Below are positions 1,361 to 19,014 of a DNA stretch of 38,268 bases, one piece after another; within the stretch, counting starts at the first letter, position 1, and each line of letters opens with the position of its first letter. Origin of the DNA: a virus; IMG/VR virus record IMGVR_UViG_3300046170_000172, positions 1 to 38,268 of that record; one strand, given 5' to 3'. The notes under the pieces were generated by a model. It made no database searches. It worked only from the letters and a program-made list of their open reading frames with translations, and had not been told where the DNA came from. Position numbers and translations under genes: made by a program.

Positions 1361-3005
1361 GCTTAAAGACTTTAGAAATTTTTTATATCTAGTTTGGAAA
1401 CATTTGGCTTTACCTAGGCCAACTGAAATTCAATATGATATTGCAAATTTTATACAATCTAAAGAAAACAGGATTGTAATTAATGCTTTTAGAGGAGTAG
1501 GTAAAAGTTGGATAACTTCAGCTTTTGTATGTCATCAACTTTTATTAAATCCTCAATTAAACATATTAGTTGTATCTGCATCTAAAAATAGAGCAGATGA
1601 CTTCTCAACATTCACATTAAGATTAATTAATGAGATTGAAGTTTTGGCTCACCTAAAACCAGGTGATGACCAAAGACAATCTAAAGTAAGTTTCGATGTA
1701 AAACCTGCAAGAGCTTCACACGCTCCATCAGTTAAGTCCCTAGGTATTTCTGGGCAGATGACAGGTGCTCGGAGCGACCTCATAATTTCTGATGATGTTG
1801 AAAGTGCGAACAATTCTGCAACAATGGGAATGAGGGATAAACTTTCAGAACAAGTCAAAGAGTTCGAAAGTATTATCAAACCTGGAGGTCGCATCATATT
1901 TCTAGGCACAATGCAGACAGAAATGTCTTTATATAACCAATTAACTACAAGAGGTTATAAGCAAAGAATATGGCCAGCAAGGTATCCTAATGAGAAACAA
2001 TTAAAAAACTTTGGAGATACACTAGCTCCTAAAATTAGAAATACATGGAATATAGACATCCAAGGGGAACCAACAGATGCTGAAAGATTTGATGATGAAG
2101 ATTTAAGAAAGAGACAATTAAGTTATGGAGCCTCTGGTTTTAACTTACAGTTCATGTTGGATACATCATTAAGTGATGAGAATAAATATCCATTAAAATT
2201 AAATGATTTAGTAGTTATGTCTTTAAATCCAAAGACAGCTCCAGAAAAAGTTATATGGGCTTCTAGTCCAGAATTAAAACATGAAGAGTTACCATGTGTT
2301 GGTATGCACGCAGATGCTTATTTTAGACCAATGCAAATACAAGGTGATTGGATGGATTACCAAGGTTCAGTTCTAGCAATTGACCCTTCTGGTAAAGGAG
2401 ATAACGAAACCAGTTATGTATGTGCGAAGATGTTAAATGGTAATGTCTACATTACAGATGCTGGTGGATTGATTGGTGGTTATACAGATAAGACACTTCA
2501 ATCAATTGCAACAATAGCAAAACAACAAGAAGCAAACTTAATCCTAGTAGAGGAAAACTATGGAGGAGGTATGTTTACAAAATTATTACTTCCATTTGTT
2601 ATGAAAACATATCCAGTAACAATAGAAGAGATTAGACATCAACAAGCCAAAGAAAAAAGAATAATAGATACTTTGGAACCATTGATGCAACAACACAGAT
2701 TAATCATAGATACAAATGTAGTGCACAAAGACTACAACTCTGCAAATGAAATGTATTCTTTAGATAAAGCCTTAAGATACCAATTGTTTTACCAGATGAG
2801 TAGAGTAAGCAGTATAAAAGGTTCACTTGCCTATGATGACCGATTAGATACGCTAGCGATGGCATGTAGGTATTGGGTAGACCAACTGGCTAGAGACCAG
2901 GACACTGCTCAAATACAGAGGCGTAGGGAGCTCCTAGAGGTAGAATTAGAGAGCTTTTTAGACACACAACAGTTTGGAAGGAAGACATCCAACAGATGGA
3001 TGTAA
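1341..3005 (+). CDS. terL: Terminase large subunit (T7 gp19-like)
   Basis: This 554-aa DNA-packaging motor has an ATPase Walker A-like loop NAFRGVGKSW (about residues 48-57), a Walker B SDLIISDDVESA (about 141-152), and a C-terminal RNase H-fold nuclease with LAIDPSGKGDNET and later acidic residues (VEENYGG, DDRLDTLA). It pumps concatemeric DNA into proheads through the portal at 19798. Length is close to T7 gp19 (586). The start is set by the small-subunit overlap; GAGG lies 13 bases upstream, rather far. A phage promoter-like element follows directly at 3015. Confidence 0.97.
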   Translation: MEKIPTKLKDFRNFLYLVWKHLALPRPTEIQYDIANFIQSKENRIVINAFRGVGKSWITSAFVCHQLLLNPQLNILVVSASKNRADDFSTFTLRLINEIEVLAHLKPGDDQRQSKVSFDVKPARASHAPSVKSLGISGQMTGARSDLIISDDVESANNSATMGMRDKLSEQVKEFESIIKPGGRIIFLGTMQTEMSLYNQLTTRGYKQRIWPARYPNEKQLKNFGDTLAPKIRNTWNIDIQGEPTDAERFDDEDLRKRQLSYGASGFNLQFMLDTSLSDENKYPLKLNDLVVMSLNPKTAPEKVIWASSPELKHEELPCVGMHADAYFRPMQIQGDWMDYQGSVLAIDPSGKGDNETSYVCAKMLNGNVYITDAGGLIGGYTDKTLQSIATIAKQQEANLILVEENYGGGMFTKLLLPFVMKTYPVTIEEIRHQQAKEKRIIDTLEPLMQQHRLIIDTNVVHKDYNSANEMYSLDKALRYQLFYQMSRVSSIKGSLAYDDRLDTLAMACRYWVDQLARDQDTAQIQRRRELLEVELESFLDTQQFGRKTSNRWM

Positions 3006-3014
3006 TTAACACAT

Positions 3015-3030
3015 GGACACATTAGATATA
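3015..3030 (+). promoter_or_regulatory. T7-type phage promoter-like element, copy 1
   Basis: GGACACATTAGATATA differs by one base from the copies at 19373 and 33151. It lies in the gap just after terL and before a small gene at 3119, comparable to T7 phiOR after gene 19. By alignment with T7 CACTATAG the start would be G3025. It is intergenic, and so are all other close copies. Confidence 0.6.
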
Positions 3031-3118
3031 GGGGTTGAACACTAGCTTACCCTATAGGTATACCAAAGGTTACCTTAAGAGTTCGTCAGTTATCCATAGC
3101 ATCTAATTAATAATAATA

Positions 3119-3685: not shown

Positions 3686-3916
3686 ATGAGCAATTACAGA
3701 TTAACACTACAAACAAGAGAATATTTTAACGAAACTAAAACAATCAATGAAGCTATAGTTGAAGCTGAAAGCCTGGCGAATGACTTAAAATCAATGTTGC
3801 AGGCAGGCGCAGAAATAACTGACAATGATGGGACTAACATTATATTGGAAGCATCATCAACAGACCCAAAAACAATTGCAAACCTTAAAAGCCTTAGATT
3901 TGAAATAGACGAATAA
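3686..3916 (+). CDS. Hypothetical 76-aa acidic protein
   Basis: The product starts MSNYRLTLQTREYFNETKTI and is a small acidic soluble protein (EAESLANDLKSML, DGTNIILEASS). AAAGGA about 10 bases before ATG 3686 serves as ribosome site. I recognise no domain. GCG and CTG codons are commoner here than in the core genes, like the ArdA gene nearby, which suggests an acquired accessory block. Confidence 0.6.
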   Translation: MSNYRLTLQTREYFNETKTINEAIVEAESLANDLKSMLQAGAEITDNDGTNIILEASSTDPKTIANLKSLRFEIDE

Positions 3917-3918
3917 TA

Positions 3919-3934
3919 GGACACTTTTGATAAA
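3919..3934 (+). promoter_or_regulatory. T7-type phage promoter-like element, copy 2
   Basis: GGACACTTTTGATAAA matches the 19373 copy in 14 of 16 bases and begins 3 bases after the stop of the 3686 gene. It would be the weakest of the five copies. It lies upstream of the ArdA gene but also upstream of a sigma70-like promoter at 4072. Confidence 0.45.
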
Positions 3935-4071
3935 TGGGTCAAAATCAAGCTTTTTCAGTAAAGTGCCCATATTAGACAGATAAACATTAAAACACTGTCG
4001 AAGCCTGGCTGTCTGCCTAGATTTACATAATGAGCGAACACCAGGCCACGAAATTAAATTAAAATAGTATA

Positions 4072-4101
4072 TTGACTACACCAGCGTAGCTGTAGTATAA
4101 C
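4072..4101 (+). promoter_or_regulatory. Sigma70-like promoter with embedded operator
   Basis: TTGACT (4072-4077) and TATAAC (4096-4101) are separated by 18 bases. The semi-palindrome CTACACCAGCGTAG (4076-4089) overlaps the -35 end and fills the spacer, and an identical second copy (4104-4117) covers the expected start of transcription. A protein binding there would block host polymerase. It would drive ardA at 4162. Confidence 0.6.
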
Positions 4102-5145: not shown

Positions 5146-6073
5146 GGCTCGCACACAAAAAAAGAAAAAGTTACCTAAAAAAGTTTCCAATTTTATAGGA
5201 AAAAAATTTTATGATTTTAAGGATGAAACAGGAAAAACTTTTGAATTTAAAAAAAGTAAAAATCCTTTTTCAGATATTTTTGAAGACTTTTTTAAAGATT
5301 ACAAACCACCAAAAACACAACCTCTTAAAGATATATTTGAAGATTTTTTTACTGATGAAAATAAAGCATTAGATACAATTAAAAAATGGAAGCCAGTTAG
5401 TAATTCTGCACAAACTATAAAAAAAATTACAGAAAATACACAGCCTCTTTCAGATAAAGCTCACACAGACAAAGTTAATAAACTTACTGACATGGGTGGA
5501 GGGCGTAGAAGAAAACAAAGATTTATTAAAAGTAAATTAGTACCTCTTGTACCAAGATTTAAACCTAGAGAAAAAATAGGTAAAGATGGTTTTAAGCACA
5601 TGCTTGTTGGTGATAATCCAGTTTATAAATACATGTATGAGCACGAATTATTAACACACTTTGACATAATAAAATCACATGGAAAATTAAATAAAAAATT
5701 AACTTTTGATAATAATAGTTGGAAAGAAATGGGTCTCTTACTAAAGAGTTTAAACATGACACCACAAGAAGTTTTTGATTATGCAATTAATTCAGTTCAA
5801 ACAAAAAAAAGATTTTTAGAATTAAGATTATATCGTGAATATGAGAGCAACTCTAAATTAGCTATAAATAGTTTTATAGAAATATATAAAAAACATTTAA
5901 AAACTAAACAACCTCTTAAGGTTTTTGCTGTATCAAAACCATTTATTAACTGGTGTAAAGAAGAAGATTTATATTTTAAATCAGATGAAAACTTAAGACA
6001 AAATATAAAGTTAATGATTGTCTCTTATAATAAAGATAATCCAAAAGATAAAATTCCATTAAAAATTAAATAA
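5144..6073 (+). CDS. Unrecognised 309-aa lysine-rich protein
   Basis: I do not recognise this protein. Residues 1-30 are very basic (MARTQKKKKLPKK). An internal repeat of IFEDFF occurs about 24 residues apart (near residues 45-70), and a second basic patch GGGRRRKQRF lies near 119-128. The C-terminal half (about 150-309) looks like a compact helical domain with FKHMLVGDNPVYKYMYEHE and FINWCKEEDLYF. No membrane helix is present. It has no Shine-Dalgarno and may be leaderless. It is a single-gene unit between a terminator and structured repeats, typical of a phage moron. Confidence 0.7.
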   Translation: MARTQKKKKLPKKVSNFIGKKFYDFKDETGKTFEFKKSKNPFSDIFEDFFKDYKPPKTQPLKDIFEDFFTDENKALDTIKKWKPVSNSAQTIKKITENTQPLSDKAHTDKVNKLTDMGGGRRRKQRFIKSKLVPLVPRFKPREKIGKDGFKHMLVGDNPVYKYMYEHELLTHFDIIKSHGKLNKKLTFDNNSWKEMGLLLKSLNMTPQEVFDYAINSVQTKKRFLELRLYREYESNSKLAINSFIEIYKKHLKTKQPLKVFAVSKPFINWCKEEDLYFKSDENLRQNIKLMIVSYNKDNPKDKIPLKIK

Positions 6074-7839: not shown

Positions 7840-8880
7840 ATGGGTATAAGTAGAACAGAGAATGGTAAGTTCAGAGTGTTCGTATCAGTTAAAGGTAGAG
7901 GAAGAAGTTCCAAAACTTGTGATACACATGATGAAGCACTTGCCACAGAAGAAAAACTACGAAAGGCTTTAATTGATGGTAAAGCAATACCAGCAGGTAG
8001 AGCAAGAGTAGAAGCAACATTAGAAGAAGCTTGTGAAGCTTGTTATAATGACCCAGAAACAGGATGGAAAAATACTGAACATGGTAAAAAACAAAGATAC
8101 TATTTTAGTAAGTTCTATTCTTTTTGGGGTAAGGATAAGTTGTTAAGAGAAATAAATAAAACTGAATGGTATAAATTTACTGAACAGTTTTCTGAAACAG
8201 CTACTAACAATAGAAGGGCTTGTTGCATCAACAAAGTATTTAGACATGCTTTGGAGCAAGGTACTATAACACCAGATTTTTTGTTAAAGATACCTAGAAA
8301 AAAAGAGAAGCTAACAAGACTTGCTACTTATACTTACGAGCAAGAAGAAGCTATATACCAACAATGTAAAATCCTTGGCTTTCATGACCTGGAGGACTTT
8401 GTAAAAGTTCTTATTGATACAGGTTGTCGAGCTGATGAGGCTATAAAGTTTGCACCAACTGATTTAAGAAAATCAAAAGATGGTTGGACAGCACATGTAT
8501 ATAGACAAAAGACAGACACTCATACTTCAATTGGTCTAGCGACTAGAACAAAAGAAATATTGATGCGTAGGTCTAACATGAAAACATTCTTTGAAACCAG
8601 TTACAGACAGATGTCCTACAAATGGCAAATGGTAAGACAGCAGTTAGGTCAAGCTGATAACAAAGACTTTGTATTCCATACATGCAGACATACTTGTGCT
8701 TCAAGACTAGCTGAAGCAGGAGCTACATTTATGGAAGTTTGTGATTGGATGGGTTGGAGTTTCAATTCACCTGTTGCAAGAAGATACATTCATTTCTTTC
8801 CAAAAGGTAAAATCAAAATGGCTAAGAAACTGGATGACTTGAGAGACGAATTGACAGTTGTCTCTGGAGGTAAAAGCTAG
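7840..8880 (+). CDS. int: Tyrosine integrase
   Basis: This 346-aa site-specific recombinase has the complete catalytic set of the tyrosine family: Arg197 (TGCRADE), Lys224 (QKTDTHT), His280 and Arg283 (FHTCRHTCASRL), Trp306 (DWMGWS) and the nucleophile Tyr316 (RRYIHFF). Residues 1-55 resemble an arm-binding domain (GKFRVFVSVKGRGRSS), and 60-150 the SAM-like core-binding domain. AAGGAGG precedes the start, inside the end of the previous gene. It would integrate the genome at a host attB; the gap downstream is the likely attP region. Confidence 0.95.
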   Translation: MGISRTENGKFRVFVSVKGRGRSSKTCDTHDEALATEEKLRKALIDGKAIPAGRARVEATLEEACEACYNDPETGWKNTEHGKKQRYYFSKFYSFWGKDKLLREINKTEWYKFTEQFSETATNNRRACCINKVFRHALEQGTITPDFLLKIPRKKEKLTRLATYTYEQEEAIYQQCKILGFHDLEDFVKVLIDTGCRADEAIKFAPTDLRKSKDGWTAHVYRQKTDTHTSIGLATRTKEILMRRSNMKTFFETSYRQMSYKWQMVRQQLGQADNKDFVFHTCRHTCASRLAEAGATFMEVCDWMGWSFNSPVARRYIHFFPKGKIKMAKKLDDLRDELTVVSGGKS

Positions 8881-9286
8881 TGAACAAAGTGCATCTATTA
8901 AACATTATTGTGCATAGATGCCAAGCTTGGATGGAGGCGTAGTCTCTAGGAGAAATGGTCTACTTACAAAATAAAATAAAACTTTTTAGTTTGTTTGTGA
9001 TTTTTATGTTAAAAACAATGCTCACAAAATGTGCATCAGTGTGCGTTGAAGTAAATATGAAAACTAAAAGACTTGATTTAACTGGAGATTTGTTGTGGAG
9101 GTAGACTTAAAAACTACGAACACAATTTACGCCTCCGACATATCTACTCTGGCGTAGTAGAATAACATATAATCCAAGCCTTTTAAACTGTTGCGTAGTC
9201 AATTCGTGATAGTTACGCTGTCGTAGTAGATGTGCACTTCAATGCACAAAGACTACGAACAAACTATAAACACACATGAGGTAAAT
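8881..9286 (+). other. Intergenic control region, possible attP
   Basis: No gene is visible in these 406 bases, but much symmetry is. An 8-bp inverted repeat GCATCTAT (8891-8898)/ATAGATGC (8914-8921) abuts the 10-bp palindrome CCAAGCTTGG (8921-8930). GGAGGCGTA (8933-8941) is inverted at TACGCCTCC (9128-9136). GTGCAT recurs at about 8890, 8911 and 9031. Operator-like sites lie at 9144-9157 and 9213-9226, and a perfect TATAAT lies at 9168-9173. Position next to int suggests attP with integrase arm sites, followed by the early promoter of the RNA polymerase operon. No tRNA-like core sequence was recognised here. Confidence 0.45.
9144..9226 (+). promoter_or_regulatory. Operator-like cluster before the RNA polymerase genes
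   Basis: CTACTCTGGCGTAG (9144-9157), a half site TTGCGTAGTC (9191-9200) and TTACGCTGTCGTAG (9213-9226) repeat the CTAC-N6-GTAG theme. TATAAT at 9168-9173 is a good -10 hexamer, but no good -35 is seen 16-18 bases upstream. Repression here would silence the phage polymerase and thereby most of the lytic genes. Confidence 0.5.
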
Positions 9287-10264
9287 ATGGATATAGACGC
9301 TAAAATACTTGAGAAATTTAACATTCTTAAAAGAGACAAGAGTGTGCCTTCAACTCAACATGAAAAAATAGAGGCTCAAAAGACGCTAGAAATAGCTATG
9401 GTTAAAAGTGGTATCAAAAGGTTCCACAAGAATATTAATAAATCCAGAGCTAAACTATCAGACAAAGGCAAAGCCAGGGAAAGTAGTGAGAGCACTACAA
9501 TTTATGGCCAAGTGCTAATACAGACAGGCTTGGAGCCTTTAAACAGTGCTTTAAACAAATACTTCATAGAAGCATTTGATGGGCATGCCAAAAGATATGC
9601 AACTGAAGCTACTTTGTTAGCTAAATGTATTCCTATCCAGGAAGTAGAAACAGAAAATCCAGAGAGGTGGTCTAGTATTAGTTTTATATGTTTAAAAGCT
9701 GTACTGGATAGCATCACTGTTTCATCAACCCAAACAAAAGCAGTATTGAAAATAGCTAGTGCTATTGAGGATGAAGCTAGGCTCTTATATTTTAAGGAAA
9801 GTGATAACAAGACCTACAGCCAGACTAAAGAATGGCTTAAAACTAAGAACAATTACAGGCATAAAAGGAAGGTATTCCAATATGCTATGAACAAACACCA
9901 GTTGGAATACACTGGTTGGTCTAAAGAAGAGAGGGTCAAACTAGGTAAATTGTTGCTGGAAATGTTAGCCAGCACCACTGGTTTTATCAAACTTACCAAG
10001 ACTTATGCTCAAAAGAACAAGTCAATTGTCTATGTCCAGGCCACTGAAAAAACAATGGAATGGATTGAGCAGAAAAAATTACATGCAGAAATTTTAAAAC
10101 CATTTAGGGAGCCCATGGTTATTGCACCTAAAAGGTGGGACAACAATCCTTATTCTGGTGGGTATGTAATTAAAGATTTGAGGCCAGCTCAATTAGGTTC
10201 CACTGTAGGAGAACTTACATCCAAAAATCAACAATCAACTGACGAGGTAAAACATGCACTATAA
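9287..10264 (+). CDS. T7-type RNA polymerase, N-terminal subunit (split gene)
   Basis: This 325-aa protein corresponds to the N-terminal domain and thumb region of T7 RNA polymerase: IYGQVLIQTGLEPLNSALNK, DGHAKRYATEATLLAK, STTGFIKLTKTYAQKNK, and finally PMVIAPKRWDNNPYSGGY, which aligns with T7 PMVVPPKPWTG near T7 residue 390. After that come about 30 residues unlike T7, then a stop. ATG 9287 is chosen because GAGG lies 5 bases upstream; ATGs at 9230 and 9242 lack this. The catalytic half is encoded separately from 10254. It should supply promoter and nascent-RNA contacts. Confidence 0.9.
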   Translation: MDIDAKILEKFNILKRDKSVPSTQHEKIEAQKTLEIAMVKSGIKRFHKNINKSRAKLSDKGKARESSESTTIYGQVLIQTGLEPLNSALNKYFIEAFDGHAKRYATEATLLAKCIPIQEVETENPERWSSISFICLKAVLDSITVSSTQTKAVLKIASAIEDEARLLYFKESDNKTYSQTKEWLKTKNNYRHKRKVFQYAMNKHQLEYTGWSKEERVKLGKLLLEMLASTTGFIKLTKTYAQKNKSIVYVQATEKTMEWIEQKKLHAEILKPFREPMVIAPKRWDNNPYSGGYVIKDLRPAQLGSTVGELTSKNQQSTDEVKHAL

Positions 10265-11990
10265 TATGGTGAAAAGAGCATCCAGAGCTTATCTGGAAGA
10301 AATAGCAAACAGAGCACATGAAATGCCAGAGGTTTATAAATGTATAAACACTCTACAGGAAACACCTTTTAAGGTTAATGTTTCTGTTTATCAGGTACTA
10401 AAAACAATCCATGAAAAAGGTTTACCACTTGCTGGTTTACCTAGTAGTAAAATACCACTACCACCAAAACCTTTTGATATTGGAACCAATGAAGAAGCTA
10501 GAAAAGATTATAGTAGGAAAGCTTTAGCTGTTCATAATTACAATGCAACAATTGATAGTAAGGCTTTACTTACTGAAAAAATATTTAGTGTTGCAGATAC
10601 CTATGAACAATTTGAAGAATTTTATTTTCCTCTTCAATATGATTTTCGTGGCAGAATTTATTGTGTGCCAGAAGGATTAAACTATCAGCAAAATGATTTA
10701 GCTAAAGGTTTATTACTTTTTAGAAATGGTAAAAAGATTGGAACCCAATTAGCTGTAGATAGATTAGCTGTGCATGGTGCCAATATGTATGGTCATGATA
10801 AAGATACTTTAGAGAACAGAATAAAATGGGTTAGAGAAAATGAAAAATTTATTTTGCAATCTGCTGAAGACCCACATAATAATTATGAGTTCTGGGCTGA
10901 AGCATCTGAACCAGTACAATTCTTATCATTTTGTTTTGAGTGGAATGACTTCTGTAAATCTGGAAAAAGTTTAGACTTTATAACTAATGTAATTTGTTAT
11001 TCTGATTGTACTAATTCTGGTCTACAAATTTTTTCAGCATTACTAAAAGATGAAAAAGGTGGTAATGCAGTAAACCTGGTACCATCTAATAAAGTTCAAG
11101 ATGTATATGGTGAAGTTGCAAATGCTACTATTGAGTTGCTTGAAGCAGAACCAGACAGCCAATTAAAAAAGATATGGTTGGACTATGGTATCAACAGGAA
11201 GACTACAAAAAAAGTTACCATGTGTATTGTATATGGACTAACTCAATTTTCTTGTAGGAAATATATTCAAGACCACCTGGAGGAACTTCAAGAAGATGGT
11301 ATTAAAGATATACCATTCTCTACTGACAGAAATCCTATGCCTGGTGTGCCTAATATATTTAAAGGTTCAGCATACTTATCTAGGTTTGTATGGAAGGCCT
11401 TGGATGAAGTAATTGTATCAGCTAAAGAAGCGATGAAATGGTTACAGGATACATCTAAATTAGTTTCAGAAAATGGATTGCCAGTTGTTTGGACTACACC
11501 TACAGGGTTTAAAGTTCAGCTAGTTTGTCCAGTATTAGAAACTAAGAGAATAAATACTTATATGGGAGAAAAAATATTTAGACCCAAAAGTAATACCTAT
11601 ACTCCAGACATCAAGAAAACTACAATAGCAGTGGAGACTAACAAGATAGACAAGCGTAAAGTATCTAATAGTATTTCACCTTGTTTTGTTCACGCACTCG
11701 ATGGCGCTGTCCTTCAAAAGGCTGTGAGTAAAGCTAAAGATTACAACATAGAAAACTTTGCTTGTGTCCATGATAGCTTTGGTGTCCTGGCAACAGATGT
11801 TCAATTGATGAACCAATCATTAAGAGAAGCGTTTGTTGAAATATTTGATGGGAAAAATTTACTTGAAGAATTTAAAGATGAAATGCTCCCACAAATTCAA
11901 AAAGAAAAACAACACAAAATAAAACCTACTCCAAAACAAGGCACTCTGGAATTGAAGAATGTATTGGGTAGTTATTATTTCTGTAGTTAA
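10254..11990 (+). CDS. T7-type RNA polymerase, C-terminal catalytic subunit (split gene)
   Basis: This 578-aa protein starts where T7 RNAP reads MPEVYKAIN (here EMPEVYKCIN, residues 23-32) and runs to the C-terminus. Catalytic residues are all present: Asp251 (SDCTNSGLQ, T7 D537), Arg315, Lys319 and Tyr327 (RKTTKKVTMCIVYG, T7 R627, K631, Y639), FVHALDG, and His506-Asp507 (CVHDSFG, T7 D812). The T7 end FAFA is YYFCS here. The gene overlaps the N-terminal gene by 11 bases in another frame and has its own GAGG six bases before ATG 10254. Together the parts total 903 aa (T7: 883). It would read the GACACTWTAGA-type promoters. Confidence 0.95.
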   Translation: MHYNMVKRASRAYLEEIANRAHEMPEVYKCINTLQETPFKVNVSVYQVLKTIHEKGLPLAGLPSSKIPLPPKPFDIGTNEEARKDYSRKALAVHNYNATIDSKALLTEKIFSVADTYEQFEEFYFPLQYDFRGRIYCVPEGLNYQQNDLAKGLLLFRNGKKIGTQLAVDRLAVHGANMYGHDKDTLENRIKWVRENEKFILQSAEDPHNNYEFWAEASEPVQFLSFCFEWNDFCKSGKSLDFITNVICYSDCTNSGLQIFSALLKDEKGGNAVNLVPSNKVQDVYGEVANATIELLEAEPDSQLKKIWLDYGINRKTTKKVTMCIVYGLTQFSCRKYIQDHLEELQEDGIKDIPFSTDRNPMPGVPNIFKGSAYLSRFVWKALDEVIVSAKEAMKWLQDTSKLVSENGLPVVWTTPTGFKVQLVCPVLETKRINTYMGEKIFRPKSNTYTPDIKKTTIAVETNKIDKRKVSNSISPCFVHALDGAVLQKAVSKAKDYNIENFACVHDSFGVLATDVQLMNQSLREAFVEIFDGKNLLEEFKDEMLPQIQKEKQHKIKPTPKQGTLELKNVLGSYYFCS

Positions 11991-15467: not shown

Positions 15468-17231
15468 ATGAGAGTAATATTTGATTTAGAAACAAATGGT
15501 TTCTTATCAGATGCAACCAAAATACATTCAATTGTAATTAAAGATATAGATACCAAACAAGTCTTCTCATATCATGGAGATAAAATTGGTAGAGGTTTAT
15601 ATATTTTAAGTGGCGCTAGCTTATTAGTTGGCCACAATATTTTAAAATTTGATTTACCTGTCATAGAAAAATTATATCCAGAATATAAAATTGAAGGTGA
15701 AGTGTTTGACACTTTACTGGTTAGCAGATTGATATGGACTAATAGAAAAGAACTAGACTTTCAAATGAAAGAACTGCCATTAAATTTAGCAGGAAGACAT
15801 TCATTAGAAAGCTGGGGTTATAGACTAGGTTTAAGAAAAGGTGACTATGCGAAAGAGAATGACTTCTCTGTATGGACACCAGCTATGCAAACATATTGTG
15901 AGAGGGATGTAGAAGTAACTTATGAATTTTTCAAATTAATTGAAAAACAAAATTACTCTACTGAAGCAATCAAGTTAGAGCACGACTTTGCCAGATGTAT
16001 ATATCTGCAAGAAGCACATGGATTTCATTTTGATGTGGCTTCTGCAAAGAAGCTGTATGCCTCACTTGCAAACAGGAGGTTGGAGCTAGAGAAATCTTTA
16101 GTTTCAACCTTCCCAAATTGGAAAAAATATATTGGTACCTTCATACCTAAAAGAGACAACAAAACTCTTGGTTATAAAAAAGGTGTGCCAATTAAAAGGT
16201 ATAAAGAATTAACTTTTAATCCTAATTCAAGAGACCACATATCTGATAGGTTAATGAACAAAGGATGGAAGCCTAGAGAATTTACACCAGATGGTAAACC
16301 AAAAGTGGATGAAAGTGTTTTATCAAAACTAATTTATCCAGAAGCTAAATTATTAGCTGAACATTTTTTAATACAAAAACGAATAGGACAACTAGCCGAA
16401 GGAAACAACGCCTGGTTAAAATTACAAAGGGATGGAATATTATATGGAAGCGTTATCACAAATGGTGCGAACACTGGTAGGTGCACTCACCAAAAACCTA
16501 ATGTTGCTCAAACACCTTCAGTTGGTGTTCCTTATGGTAAAGAATGTAGGTCTCTATTTACTGTTCCTAATGGTTTTCAGCTTATTGGTTGTGACGCTAG
16601 TGGTCTCGAACTTCGTTGTCTTGCTCATTATATCGGTGCGTTCGATGAAGGAAGTTTTACGAAGCAATTACTCCATGGGGATATTCACACCTACAATCAA
16701 AAACAGATTGGCTTACCAACAAGAGATTTGGCGAAGAGGGTCATCTATGGTTGCATCTATGGCATCGGAGATACAAGGCTTGGTGCAGTTGTTGGGAAAA
16801 GCTCCCAAGAAGGAAAAAGAATAAAAGCAAAATTATTTGAAGCATTACCAGCATTAAAACAATTGAGAGATAATGTTATTATTGCAACAAGAAATAAAAA
16901 ATATTTATTAGGTTTAGACAAAAGAAAATTAATTCCAAGGTCTGAACATTCAAGTTTAAATTTATTAATACAAAGCTGTGGCGCATTAATTATAAAAATG
17001 GCTACAGTTATTTTACATAAAAAATTAGAGGAAAAAAAATATGATAAGAATATCTGTACTATGGTTGCTCATGTTCATGATGAGTTACAACTTCAGTGTA
17101 AGTCTGATTACGCTGATGAAGTAGGAAAGATTGCTGTGCAATCAATTAAAGATGCAGGTACATATTTTAATTTAAGATGTCCTTTAGATGCTGAATATAA
17201 AATAGGAAACAATTGGGCTAGTACCCATTAG
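15468..17231 (+). CDS. Family A DNA polymerase with 3'-5' exonuclease (T7 gp5-like)
   Basis: The 587-aa protein has an exonuclease domain with Asp6 and Glu8 (IFDLETNGF), Asp62 (GHNILKFDLP) and Asp147 (YCERDVEV). The polymerase motifs are A with Asp376 (GCDASGLELRCLAHY), B at 418-430 (TRDLAKRVIYGCI) and C with Asp538 (VAHVHDELQ). T7 gp5 has 704 residues. The part between FPNW (215-218) and FNPNSRDH (250-257), where T7 carries its thioredoxin-binding loop, is about 30 residues here against nearly 70 in T7. Processivity may therefore not depend on thioredoxin in the T7 manner. Confidence 0.96.
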   Translation: MRVIFDLETNGFLSDATKIHSIVIKDIDTKQVFSYHGDKIGRGLYILSGASLLVGHNILKFDLPVIEKLYPEYKIEGEVFDTLLVSRLIWTNRKELDFQMKELPLNLAGRHSLESWGYRLGLRKGDYAKENDFSVWTPAMQTYCERDVEVTYEFFKLIEKQNYSTEAIKLEHDFARCIYLQEAHGFHFDVASAKKLYASLANRRLELEKSLVSTFPNWKKYIGTFIPKRDNKTLGYKKGVPIKRYKELTFNPNSRDHISDRLMNKGWKPREFTPDGKPKVDESVLSKLIYPEAKLLAEHFLIQKRIGQLAEGNNAWLKLQRDGILYGSVITNGANTGRCTHQKPNVAQTPSVGVPYGKECRSLFTVPNGFQLIGCDASGLELRCLAHYIGAFDEGSFTKQLLHGDIHTYNQKQIGLPTRDLAKRVIYGCIYGIGDTRLGAVVGKSSQEGKRIKAKLFEALPALKQLRDNVIIATRNKKYLLGLDKRKLIPRSEHSSLNLLIQSCGALIIKMATVILHKKLEEKKYDKNICTMVAHVHDELQLQCKSDYADEVGKIAVQSIKDAGTYFNLRCPLDAEYKIGNNWASTH

Positions 17232-17235
17232 TTGT

Positions 17236-17516
17236 TGGTGCCCTCAGACAGACTCGAACTGTCACTCCCAAAAGGGCAAGGATTTTCGTACCACTATAGC
17301 TTTCGCTACACTTTCGTTTTGTGGTCTGGACTATACCTTAAGCAGTTAAGCTTCCTAGTGTCTAGTCTCTACACCTCACATTCCTCAAAATGTTTTGGCT
17401 CGGTATTAGCATTTAAAAGCTTTCACCGAATTTACCAGGTTCTACTTCCGAGCTTTCGCTTGGAGCACTCAAATTAAATTTAAGTCCTTTGTGTCTACCA
17501 ATTTCACCATGAGGGC
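17236..17516 (-). tRNA. tRNA-Leu(UAA) interrupted by a group I intron
   Basis: Read on the minus strand, the 5' exon (17516-17482) starts GCCCTCATGGTGAAATTGG and the 3' exon (17286-17236) ends TGAGGGC-A-CCA. All stems are intact: acceptor GCCCTCA/TGAGGGC, D stem GTG/CAC, anticodon stem AAGGA/TCCTT, a class II variable arm CCC-TTTT-GGG and T stem GACAG/CTGTC with loop TTCGAGT. The joined anticodon loop is CTTAAAA, anticodon UAA. CCA is encoded. The mature tRNA would be 86 nt and read UUA, which by eye is a very common Leu codon in this genome. It is the only minus-strand gene; a TATATT hexamer about 25 bases upstream is its only promoter hint. Confidence 0.93.
17287..17481 (-). other. ORF-less group I intron (tRNA-Leu type, IC3-like)
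   Basis: The 195-nt intron lies between U34 and A35 of the anticodon, the site used by cyanobacterial and plastid tRNA-Leu introns. In intron numbering, P1 pairs exon CUU with GAG 12-14 (U.G at the splice site); P3 is ACCU 42-45 with AGGU 106-109; P4 is UCGGU 53-57 with ACCGA 78-82; P6 is ACAUU 89-93 with AAUGU 100-104; P7 is GACUA 115-119 with UAGUC 149-153. P9 is ACCAC 157-161 with GUGGU 188-192 and carries a GAAA-capped stem. The conserved core AAGGUAUAGUCC is present and the last base is G (omega-G). No reading frame for a homing nuclease fits inside it. Confidence 0.92.
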
Positions 17517-17550
17517 AATCAACAACAAAAAGGTTTTACAAAATATAATC

Positions 17551-17991
17551 ATGTTTAACAACAATAAAGATTTCGATTTTGATTTAGCGAGAGGAGTAAA
17601 ATCCGAACACTCGTTAGCTCAAATATTAGGATTAAGTAAGGATAAATTCGAGGTTAAATCAGAATTTGGTTTTTGGCAGAAGTCTGGAAACATTTGTATT
17701 GAGCTTGCATATAAAGGAAAACCTAGTGGATTAAGAACAACCAAAGCAAAATACTGGGTACACAGATTTATGTTTAATAAAGATGTGTGCGTAGGTCAGT
17801 GGCTTGTACCAGTTAAGAATTTAAAACAGATAGTTAAAATTTTTATTAAAGAAAATAAAAAAAGAAAATCACAAATCATAAGGATGCTTGGAGACAATTA
17901 TCAATCCAGGTGTGTCTTAATTCCAATGTCAGAATTTCTAAATTTATGGAGGAAAGTTGAAATTAAAACCAAAGATACCAAAACTAAATAG
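17551..17991 (+). CDS. PD-(D/E)XK-like nuclease
   Basis: From ATG 17551 the product is 146 aa: a helical N-terminus (FDLARGVKSEHSLAQILGLS), then FEVKSEFGFW and SGNICIELAYKGKPSG, then TTKAKYWVHRF. The E-V-K and I-E residues in successive strands, followed by a G-KPSG turn, fit a PD-(D/E)XK nuclease fold seen in many marine phage proteins. It would act in DNA recombination or host DNA breakdown. An earlier GTG at 17491 would lie inside the tRNA gene and is rejected. Being next to a group I intron, it could also be a free-standing homing nuclease. Confidence 0.6.
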   Translation: MFNNNKDFDFDLARGVKSEHSLAQILGLSKDKFEVKSEFGFWQKSGNICIELAYKGKPSGLRTTKAKYWVHRFMFNKDVCVGQWLVPVKNLKQIVKIFIKENKKRKSQIIRMLGDNYQSRCVLIPMSEFLNLWRKVEIKTKDTKTK

Positions 17992-18250
17992 AAAAAATTT
18001 TCCATACAATTTCTGTTTAGCTTATTGGATTGATACGAACTCCAGTTCTACTTGGGAAAATTTAGAGAGTATTAAAAAAAGCATACCAAGTATTTGTATT
18101 ACTACAGGTTGGTTAGTCTCTAAAGAAAACAACTCACATACATTTATAGGTGACTTAAGTTTTAATGACGATGGTTCCATAAGTGAATGTGGAAACACAA
18201 CCTGCATACCTACACAAAATATAATTAAATTGAAAAGGATAAAAATATAA
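17957..18250 (+). CDS. Hypothetical 97-aa protein
   Basis: The frame begins at TTG 17957 directly after GGAGG, overlapping the nuclease gene by 35 bases, and ends with a one-base overlap with the exonuclease start. The product has AYWIDTNSSSTWENLESIKK, CITTGWLVSKE and NTTCIPTQNIIKLKRIK, a pattern I know from small uncharacterised proteins of marine phages and bacteria. It looks like a small beta-rich domain. Function is unknown. Confidence 0.65.
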   Translation: MKLKPKIPKLNRKNFPYNFCLAYWIDTNSSSTWENLESIKKSIPSICITTGWLVSKENNSHTFIGDLSFNDDGSISECGNTTCIPTQNIIKLKRIKI

Positions 18251-19014
18251 TGATTAGAAGAATAGACCAAAGCAAAAGAACTTTAATAGTAGATGGTTCT
18301 TTATTTGTTTACAGGATAGCTTCAGCATTAGAAGAGGCCACACAATGGGAAGATGATATGTGGACTTTACATGCAGATGCTAAACTTGGAAAAAAAGTAG
18401 TTGATACAACATTAGGAAATTATAAATCAAAATTAAATTGTGATAAAATAATTATAGCTGAAGACCATAAGAAAAATTTTAGACACGACATTTATCCTAA
18501 ATATAAATCACATAGAAAAAAAGTTAGAAAACCAATTATAGTAAAACCTCTTAAGGAATACTTACAAAAAAATTATGAGTGTGTTTCGTTACCTAATTTA
18601 GAAGGTGATGATGTGTGTGGAATATTAGCAACTAAACCAGAGAATAAAGACAAGGTTGTCGTTTTATCTGGTGATAAAGATATGAGAACTATTCCAGGTA
18701 TTCATCATTTTATACATGATGACAGCACTGAAGTTGTTGATGAAAAAACAGCTAATTATAATTTTATGTATCAAACATTAGTTGGAGATTTAACTGATGG
18801 GTTTGGAGGCTGTCCAACAATTGGTGGTGTTAAAGCTTCAAGAGTTTTAGCAAACAAAAAAGACCTTCCAGAAATGTGGGAAGCTGTTGTTGGTGAATAT
18901 AAAAAACAAAAACTAGATTTAGATTATGCGCTTACTCAAGCAAGACTAGCTAGAATATTAAGAGCAACTGATTGGAATAACAAAACAAAGGAGCCAATAT
19001 TATGGAAACTATAA
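18250..19014 (+). CDS. 5'-3' exonuclease (T7 gp6-like, FEN family)
   Basis: This 254-aa FEN-type nuclease has the metal-binding motifs TLIVDGSLFVYR (N-terminal Asp), AEDHKKNFRHDIYPKYK, NLEGDDVCGILAT, VVLSGDKDMRTIPG and LVGDLTDGFGGCPTIGGVKA (helix-hairpin-helix-like). It removes RNA primers and degrades host DNA, working with endonuclease I. It ends the T7-like DNA metabolism block. Length is a little below T7 gp6 (300). Confidence 0.93.
   Translation: MIRRIDQSKRTLIVDGSLFVYRIASALEEATQWEDDMWTLHADAKLGKKVVDTTLGNYKSKLNCDKIIIAEDHKKNFRHDIYPKYKSHRKKVRKPIIVKPLKEYLQKNYECVSLPNLEGDDVCGILATKPENKDKVVVLSGDKDMRTIPGIHHFIHDDSTEVVDEKTANYNFMYQTLVGDLTDGFGGCPTIGGVKASRVLANKKDLPEMWEAVVGEYKKQKLDLDYALTQARLARILRATDWNNKTKEPILWKL

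Follow-up and report, generated by a model that had tools for sequence, protein, structure and literature searches.

The window analysed here (the whole of IMG/VR virus record IMGVR_UViG_3300046170_000172, positions 1 to 38,268, 38,268 nucleotides) derives from a T7-like phage, in which Pfam identified an RNA polymerase, SSB, a primase-helicase, DNA polymerase A and a 5'-3' exonuclease (Table 1). Chosvirus KM23-C739 was the closest named relative found. The only tRNA gene of the window is a tRNA-Leu(UAA) gene, which lies head-on to the lytic genes. The initial annotation had placed it between the DNA polymerase and a nuclease, which held only in part: the polymerase is correct, but the adjacent ORF is the uncharacterised phrog_13596, and the recognisable 5'-3' exonuclease is two ORFs away from the tRNA rather than adjoining it. 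Searches of Pfam and PDB with the phrog_13596 ORF gave no match (its nuclease-like appearance was judged by eye only), and the ORF is conserved with or without the intron described below, even where the tRNA is missing. A promoter scan of the region upstream of the tRNA gene detected nothing resembling a sigma-70 promoter.

Table 1. Features of the integration module and the tRNA-Leu(UAA) locus in the window.
Feature	Position	Strand	Evidence or remark
Tyrosine integrase	7840..8880	+	Pfam PF00589, E 2e-11; 46.8% identity to KM23-C739 integrase
attP region, putative arm-type repeats	8937..9258	.	Repeats; function inferred
attP common core GACTTAAAA	9104..9112	+	Conserved downstream of integrase relatives; exact host/phage junctions
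T7-like single-subunit RNA polymerase	10254..11990	+	Pfam PF00940; adjoins attP
T7-like DNA polymerase	15468..17231	+	Pfam PF00476; convergent with tRNA gene
tRNA-Leu(UAA) gene with group I intron, encoded CCA included	17236..17516	-	ARAGORN with introns; 28-homologue alignment
3' exon, begins AAAATCC	17236..17286	-	ARAGORN
Group I intron, 195 nt, P1-P9, terminal G, no ORF	17287..17481	-	RF00028; covariation
P7 5' strand GACUA	17363..17367	-	Partner UAGUC 17333-17329
P3 5' strand CCUGGU	17434..17439	-	Partner ACUAGG 17359-17354
5' exon, U34 last, end ...AAAGGACTT	17482..17516	-	ARAGORN; split point identical in all homologues
Uncharacterised ORF phrog_13596	17491..17991	+	Likely start 17551
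5'-3' exonuclease	18250..19014	+	Pfam PF02739

With introns disallowed, ARAGORN detected no tRNA in the window; with introns allowed, it returned one tRNA-Leu(UAA), c[17236,17516], with a 195-nt intron between U34 and A35, and the joined exons were accepted as an ordinary tRNA-Leu(UAA) of 86 nt. The sole Rfam match across the whole window was to RF00028 (17491-17306 on the minus strand, full model 1-253, E 2.5e-10). This covariance check, which the initial annotation had proposed, was passed narrowly, at 51.3 bits where the gathering threshold is 50. The precursor has an MFE z-score of -3.74, and the intron ends in G and has a U.G pair at its 5' splice site, with one A.C mismatch in P2. Because the RF00028 score alone was only just sufficient, homologues were gathered, and it is the comparative evidence, not the marginal score, that proves the group I intron.

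The homologues collected comprised 33 distinct tRNA-Leu(UAA) introns, 28 of which were taken into an alignment with a hand-written structure (P1, P2 and P3-P9, including the P3/P7 pseudoknot). Across the 28 homologues 98.0% of the cells were paired (29-41% when the partners were slid), and 30 of the 52 pairs showed two-sided compensatory change (16.8 ± 2.0 in shuffles, 5-13 in slid structures), a level matched by none of 500 shuffles. P3 was 100% paired with all six pairs compensated, P7 was 99.3% paired with two pairs compensated, and in P8 three of the four pairs were compensated; all 28 sequences have both the U.G pair at the 5' splice site and the final G. RNAalifold, which is unable to draw P3 together with P7, recovered P1, P2, P3, P4, P5, P8 and P9, but no P7. 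The locus is a tRNA-Leu(UAA) gene with a group I intron, supported well above chance, while splicing itself is inferred. What the initial annotation had claimed from the sequence alone thus largely held: a group I intron in a minus-strand phage tRNA-Leu(UAA) (ARAGORN, RF00028, covariation), a class II tRNA with encoded CCA and a 195-nt insert after U34 (ARAGORN with introns), a P1-P9 fold with P7 GACUA/UAGUC and a terminal G (comparison of the 28 homologues) and, as far as position is concerned, the insertion site of the cyanobacterial and plastid introns. It had missed the link to the integrase and attP, the replacement role of the tRNA and the junctions in host DNA.

The attP region contains GCGTAGT/TCGTAGT repeats at 8937, 9152, 9193 and 9221 and the inverse ACTACGA at 9113 and 9252. 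The core is kept beside integrase relatives, KM23 included, and is identical to positions 31-39 of the SAR11 tRNA-Leu(UAA), i.e., the anticodon loop and one base pair. The intron splits GACTT^AAAA, i.e., it lies within the integrase core sequence.

Junctions with host DNA were found in one viral contig and in two genomes of the SAR11 order. In the contig (IMGVR_UViG_3300046167_000308), bases 1-164 are the upstream flank and 5' half of a SAR11 tRNA-Leu, after which the window follows from 9104 onward (99.97% over 3.7 kb); the polymerase and the intron-bearing tRNA, ~99% identical to those of the window, are present on the same contig. The host half reads GCCCTCGTGG versus GCCCTCATGG in the phage gene, and since the 5' half has GCCCTCG where the phage gene has GCCCTCA, it is not a copy of the latter. 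A left junction was sought in the viral contigs and none was found. In genome G286, host genes on contig C27 are followed by the 3' half of the host tRNA-Leu(UAA), joined to a prophage (GTAGACTTAAAA abutting TCCTTGCC) with a 79% identical integrase and terminase, capsid and tail genes; ARAGORN predicted no tRNA at this junction, and the second junction is absent from the assembly. In genome G224, both host junctions are preserved ~1.3 kb apart, with a phage remnant between the tRNA halves (host 5' half, phage right arm, intron-bearing tRNA, a 250-aa ORF, left arm, host 3' half). Taken across these data, integration into the anticodon loop of the host tRNA-Leu(UAA) is seen on both sides. The 250-aa ORF between the att junctions of G224 (L185 8254-9006) has a signal-peptide-like start and no Pfam match.

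A search of SAR11 genomes for the intron, also suggested by the initial annotation, showed that the tRNA-Leu(UAA) is normally intronless in the host genomes inspected, the exception being G224, where the intron copy lies inside the phage remnant. The RF00028 scan found the intron gene in one of 397 genomes of the order, and a DNA search of 250 genomes of the genus of G224 found it in G224 itself only. Weak, partial RF00028 matches in two other genomes (G291 and G362, 24.8 and 23.3 bits) lie outside tRNA and were taken as chance. In the intron tree, the G224 intron falls among the phage introns and is closest to that of the window, and G224 thereby offers a route for fixing a phage intron in a cellular chromosome, which bears on the spread of tRNA introns among bacteria. 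No second tRNA-Leu(UAA) was found in G224 besides the intron copy (the completeness of the G224 and G286 assemblies is unknown). Of the Leu codons, UUA accounts for 64% in the phage and for 62% in the genes around the G224 remnant, and as the commonest Leu codon in both it renders tRNA-Leu(UAA) hardly dispensable. Unless the assembly hides another copy, the G224 cell lives on a tRNA that needs intron removal, and this sole copy represents natural, if indirect, evidence that the intron splices, no splicing assay being at hand; guanosine-dependent splicing remains an inference with no other support. That the intron has decayed and the tRNA gene is dead might be suggested by the Rfam score barely above gathering and by the mismatch in P2, but this is all but excluded by the strong compensatory variation, by splice-site features invariant in 28 sequences, and by the role of the intron copy as the only tRNA-Leu(UAA) detected in G224.

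We propose that the integrase would recombine the attP core with the anticodon loop of the host tRNA-Leu(UAA) gene. Because attP and the host tRNA share only 9 bp, no functional tRNA is rebuilt; integration would break the host tRNA, and the lysogen would live on the phage-borne tRNA-Leu(UAA), from which the group I ribozyme is predicted to excise itself (P1 carrying the U.G pair, attack by guanosine, joining of the exons), restoring the tRNA. It is thus very likely that the phage gene replaces a host tRNA destroyed by integration and is made usable by self-removal of its intron, although in vivo splicing, expression of the tRNA in lysogens and stability of lysogeny are inferred. Four of the features that define tRNA-dependent lysogeny are present: a tyrosine integrase, an attB in a host tRNA with observed junctions, a 9-bp core, and a phage tRNA of the same isotype. 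The phage appears to be temperate, with stable lysogeny again an inference; T7-like cyanophages integrate without forming stable lysogens (PMC8776855), and in view of this precedent stable lysogeny may not hold for the SAR11 phage either. An alternative is that the tRNA serves only to boost translation during lytic growth, as has been proposed for the tRNAs of lytic phages. The prevalence of UUA among the Leu codons of the phage would agree with this, but UUA usage of the host is alike, the gene is the sole tRNA of the window and is directed against the lytic genes, and the isotype it encodes is precisely that of the gene broken by integration, so that we consider a purely lytic role very unlikely.

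The replacement reading finds a close counterpart in actinobacteriophages, in which the two-part design of tRNA-dependent lysogeny has been shown experimentally (Guerrero-Bustamante and Hatfull 2024, PMC10865867), its extent beyond actinophages being left open by the authors. The systems share a tyrosine integrase, an attB in a host tRNA, a core of ~10 bp that does not rebuild the tRNA, and a carried tRNA of the same isotype; they differ in that the window phage is T7-like, infects SAR11 and uses Leu(UAA), and in that its spare gene is split by an intron in the integrase core, an intron of a kind not reported in the relevant sections of PMC10865867. Among SAR11 phages, pelagiphages of the HTVC019P/HTVC105P type share the attB in the host tRNA-Leu(UAA) with the window phage. 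The attP of HTVC105P, however, includes a 43-bp stretch of the tRNA 5' half, and an HTVC019P-type prophage (L243) rebuilds the host gene with no spare tRNA seen; such a tRNA-restoring attP is not what the window has, its core being 9 bp. The prophage in question (L243 8363-9337: a MarR-like regulator, the integrase and the rebuilt tRNA-Leu(UAA)) is another type of phage in competition for this attachment site. Fonsiphage, HTVC011P and HTVC025P (PMC6811365) are likewise SAR11 phages reported to integrate at a tRNA-Leu, one of them bringing its own tRNA-Leu, but their site is tRNA-Leu(TAG) and the relevant sections of PMC6811365 mention no intron.

Position 34 is also where the tRNA-Leu(UAA) intron of cyanobacteria is inserted, immediately after U34. 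The intron of the window resembles the cyanobacterial and plastid ones in gene, insertion point, small size, group I type and lack of an ORF, but it belongs to a replacement gene carried by a phage, and its exons are of SAR11 type. A 2014 review stated that every phage intron then known sat in protein-coding genes (PMC3984707), which agrees with the claim of the initial annotation that no tRNA intron was known in this type of phage; yet similar, unannotated introns occur in the Agrobacterium jumbo phage Atu_ph07 (MF403008) and in LR756501, at the same site, homologous and 70-77% identical. In the open-access literature searched, each half of the system is known, whereas the combination, with an intron within the integrase core, was not found described. 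It joins group I introns of tRNA genes to lysogeny requiring a spare tRNA, and it extends the latter to T7-like phages of the commonest bacteria of the ocean.

Whether the position of the intron within the core matters was judged from the anticodon stems. The host stem around the core is AAGG..CCTT in 81 of the 82 genomes with a match (G012, with ACGG..CCGT, is exceptional). Intron-bearing pelagiphage copies keep the host stem in 20 of 20 distinct sequences, and the intronless copies in the same slot all have altered stems, TTGG..CCAA (L047, L048, L050, L056, L063) or TCGG..CCGT (KM23, L244, L245, L250). The intronless rows occupy three places in the polymerase tree, two of them within the intron clade, and the rows of this pattern are not independent. 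An unaltered, intronless host-type copy was met once in a scan of 2.9 million viral contigs; it belongs to a prophage of the HTVC019P type, in which the host gene is rebuilt. Such a pattern would be expected if the spare gene had to be hidden from integrase. In a bolder reading, the intron would hide the essential spare tRNA gene at the DNA level from the phage's own and rival integrases, the RNA being unchanged after splicing, and intronless sister phages would reach the same end through rewritten anticodon-stem pairs beside the core. Both parts together fall a little short of being favoured, and the reading is unproven; if true, it would give a ribozyme intron a role in protecting a gene from site-specific recombination. 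Against it stand unaltered intronless copies (host stem) beside such junctions in G079 and G033, in elements without a visible integrase, and the introns of large phages in which no such need is known. As further caveats, the host of KM23 is unknown, and G012 has ACGG..CCGT. Integration into an intronless replacement copy was considered for G079 and ruled out by the flanks: every 5' half is preceded by the same host-type upstream sequence, which indicates tandem insertions, and G079 was therefore not counted as evidence for the shield.

The stacked insertions at the SAR11 tRNA-Leu(UAA) in these two genomes (G079 contig C2, L239 4398-12880; G033 contig C2, L240 10921-12453) consist of a phage-like left arm, an intronless replacement tRNA and cargo, with no integrase seen; the cargo includes one protein with NOV_C and DUF3427 domains. 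They may be phage satellites or islands.

For the intron alone, a neutral or selfish passenger is an explanation that could equally well be right or wrong: the tRNA would still replace that of the host, intron and integrase would both favour the anticodon loop, and the overlap with the core would be coincidental. In its favour, large phages that carry tRNA arrays and are not known to integrate at a tRNA-Leu (Atu_ph07, LR756501, L202, L213, L232) have introns, all related, at the same site, and the G079 and G033 elements rely on replacement copies that lack an intron and keep the host stem. Against it, the pelagiphage exons equal those of the SAR11 host (spliced L049 is identical to the host gene), so a foreign gene was not simply imported, and this integrase type was never found with an intact intronless host-type site in the viral contigs, save for the single prophage mentioned above. 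Active homing, perhaps with a free-standing endonuclease encoded by the neighbouring ORF, is very unlikely. A related phage tRNA-Leu intron carries an HNH ORF, and intron presence switches at least twice within the polymerase clade, but homing requires an endonuclease in or linked to the intron, and none was identified: the 195-nt intron has no ORF, and the neighbouring ORF was rejected as a candidate, its presence being independent of the intron and even of the tRNA.

The nearest relatives found for the intron of the window are introns of other phages; the intron tree comprised phages, G224 and Bacteroidota only, with no cyanobacterial introns placed. Atu_ph07 and LR756501 differ from the window phage in having large tRNA sets or being very large, with no link to integration seen. 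The Atu_ph07 gene (L003 1494-1855, MF403008.1) partly overlaps an annotated hypothetical protein, and the paper on this phage says nothing of the tRNA-Leu intron; that of LR756501.1 (L002 1494-1784) lies in a 735-kb phage. The HNH-bearing intron (L221 2499-3195, ~600 nt; ORF 2505-3041, Pfam HNH_3) is possibly a mobile relative of the ORF-less introns. One phage contig (L010) contains three intron-bearing tRNA genes (1134-1418, 3811-4092 and 5493-5766) with similar group I-like introns within an array of 20 tRNAs. Most pattern matches in the viral contigs proved to be tRNA arrays without introns, and of the 18 pattern matches in genomes, 15, including AH-287-D11 (L111), were intronless tRNA genes matched through chance spacing. 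The remaining three are real: metagenome assemblies of Bacteroidota have tRNA-Leu(UAA) genes that look chromosomal (L114 2943-3268, L122 2649-2969 and L124 2404-2725), with group I introns homologous to that of the window and inserted at the same site.
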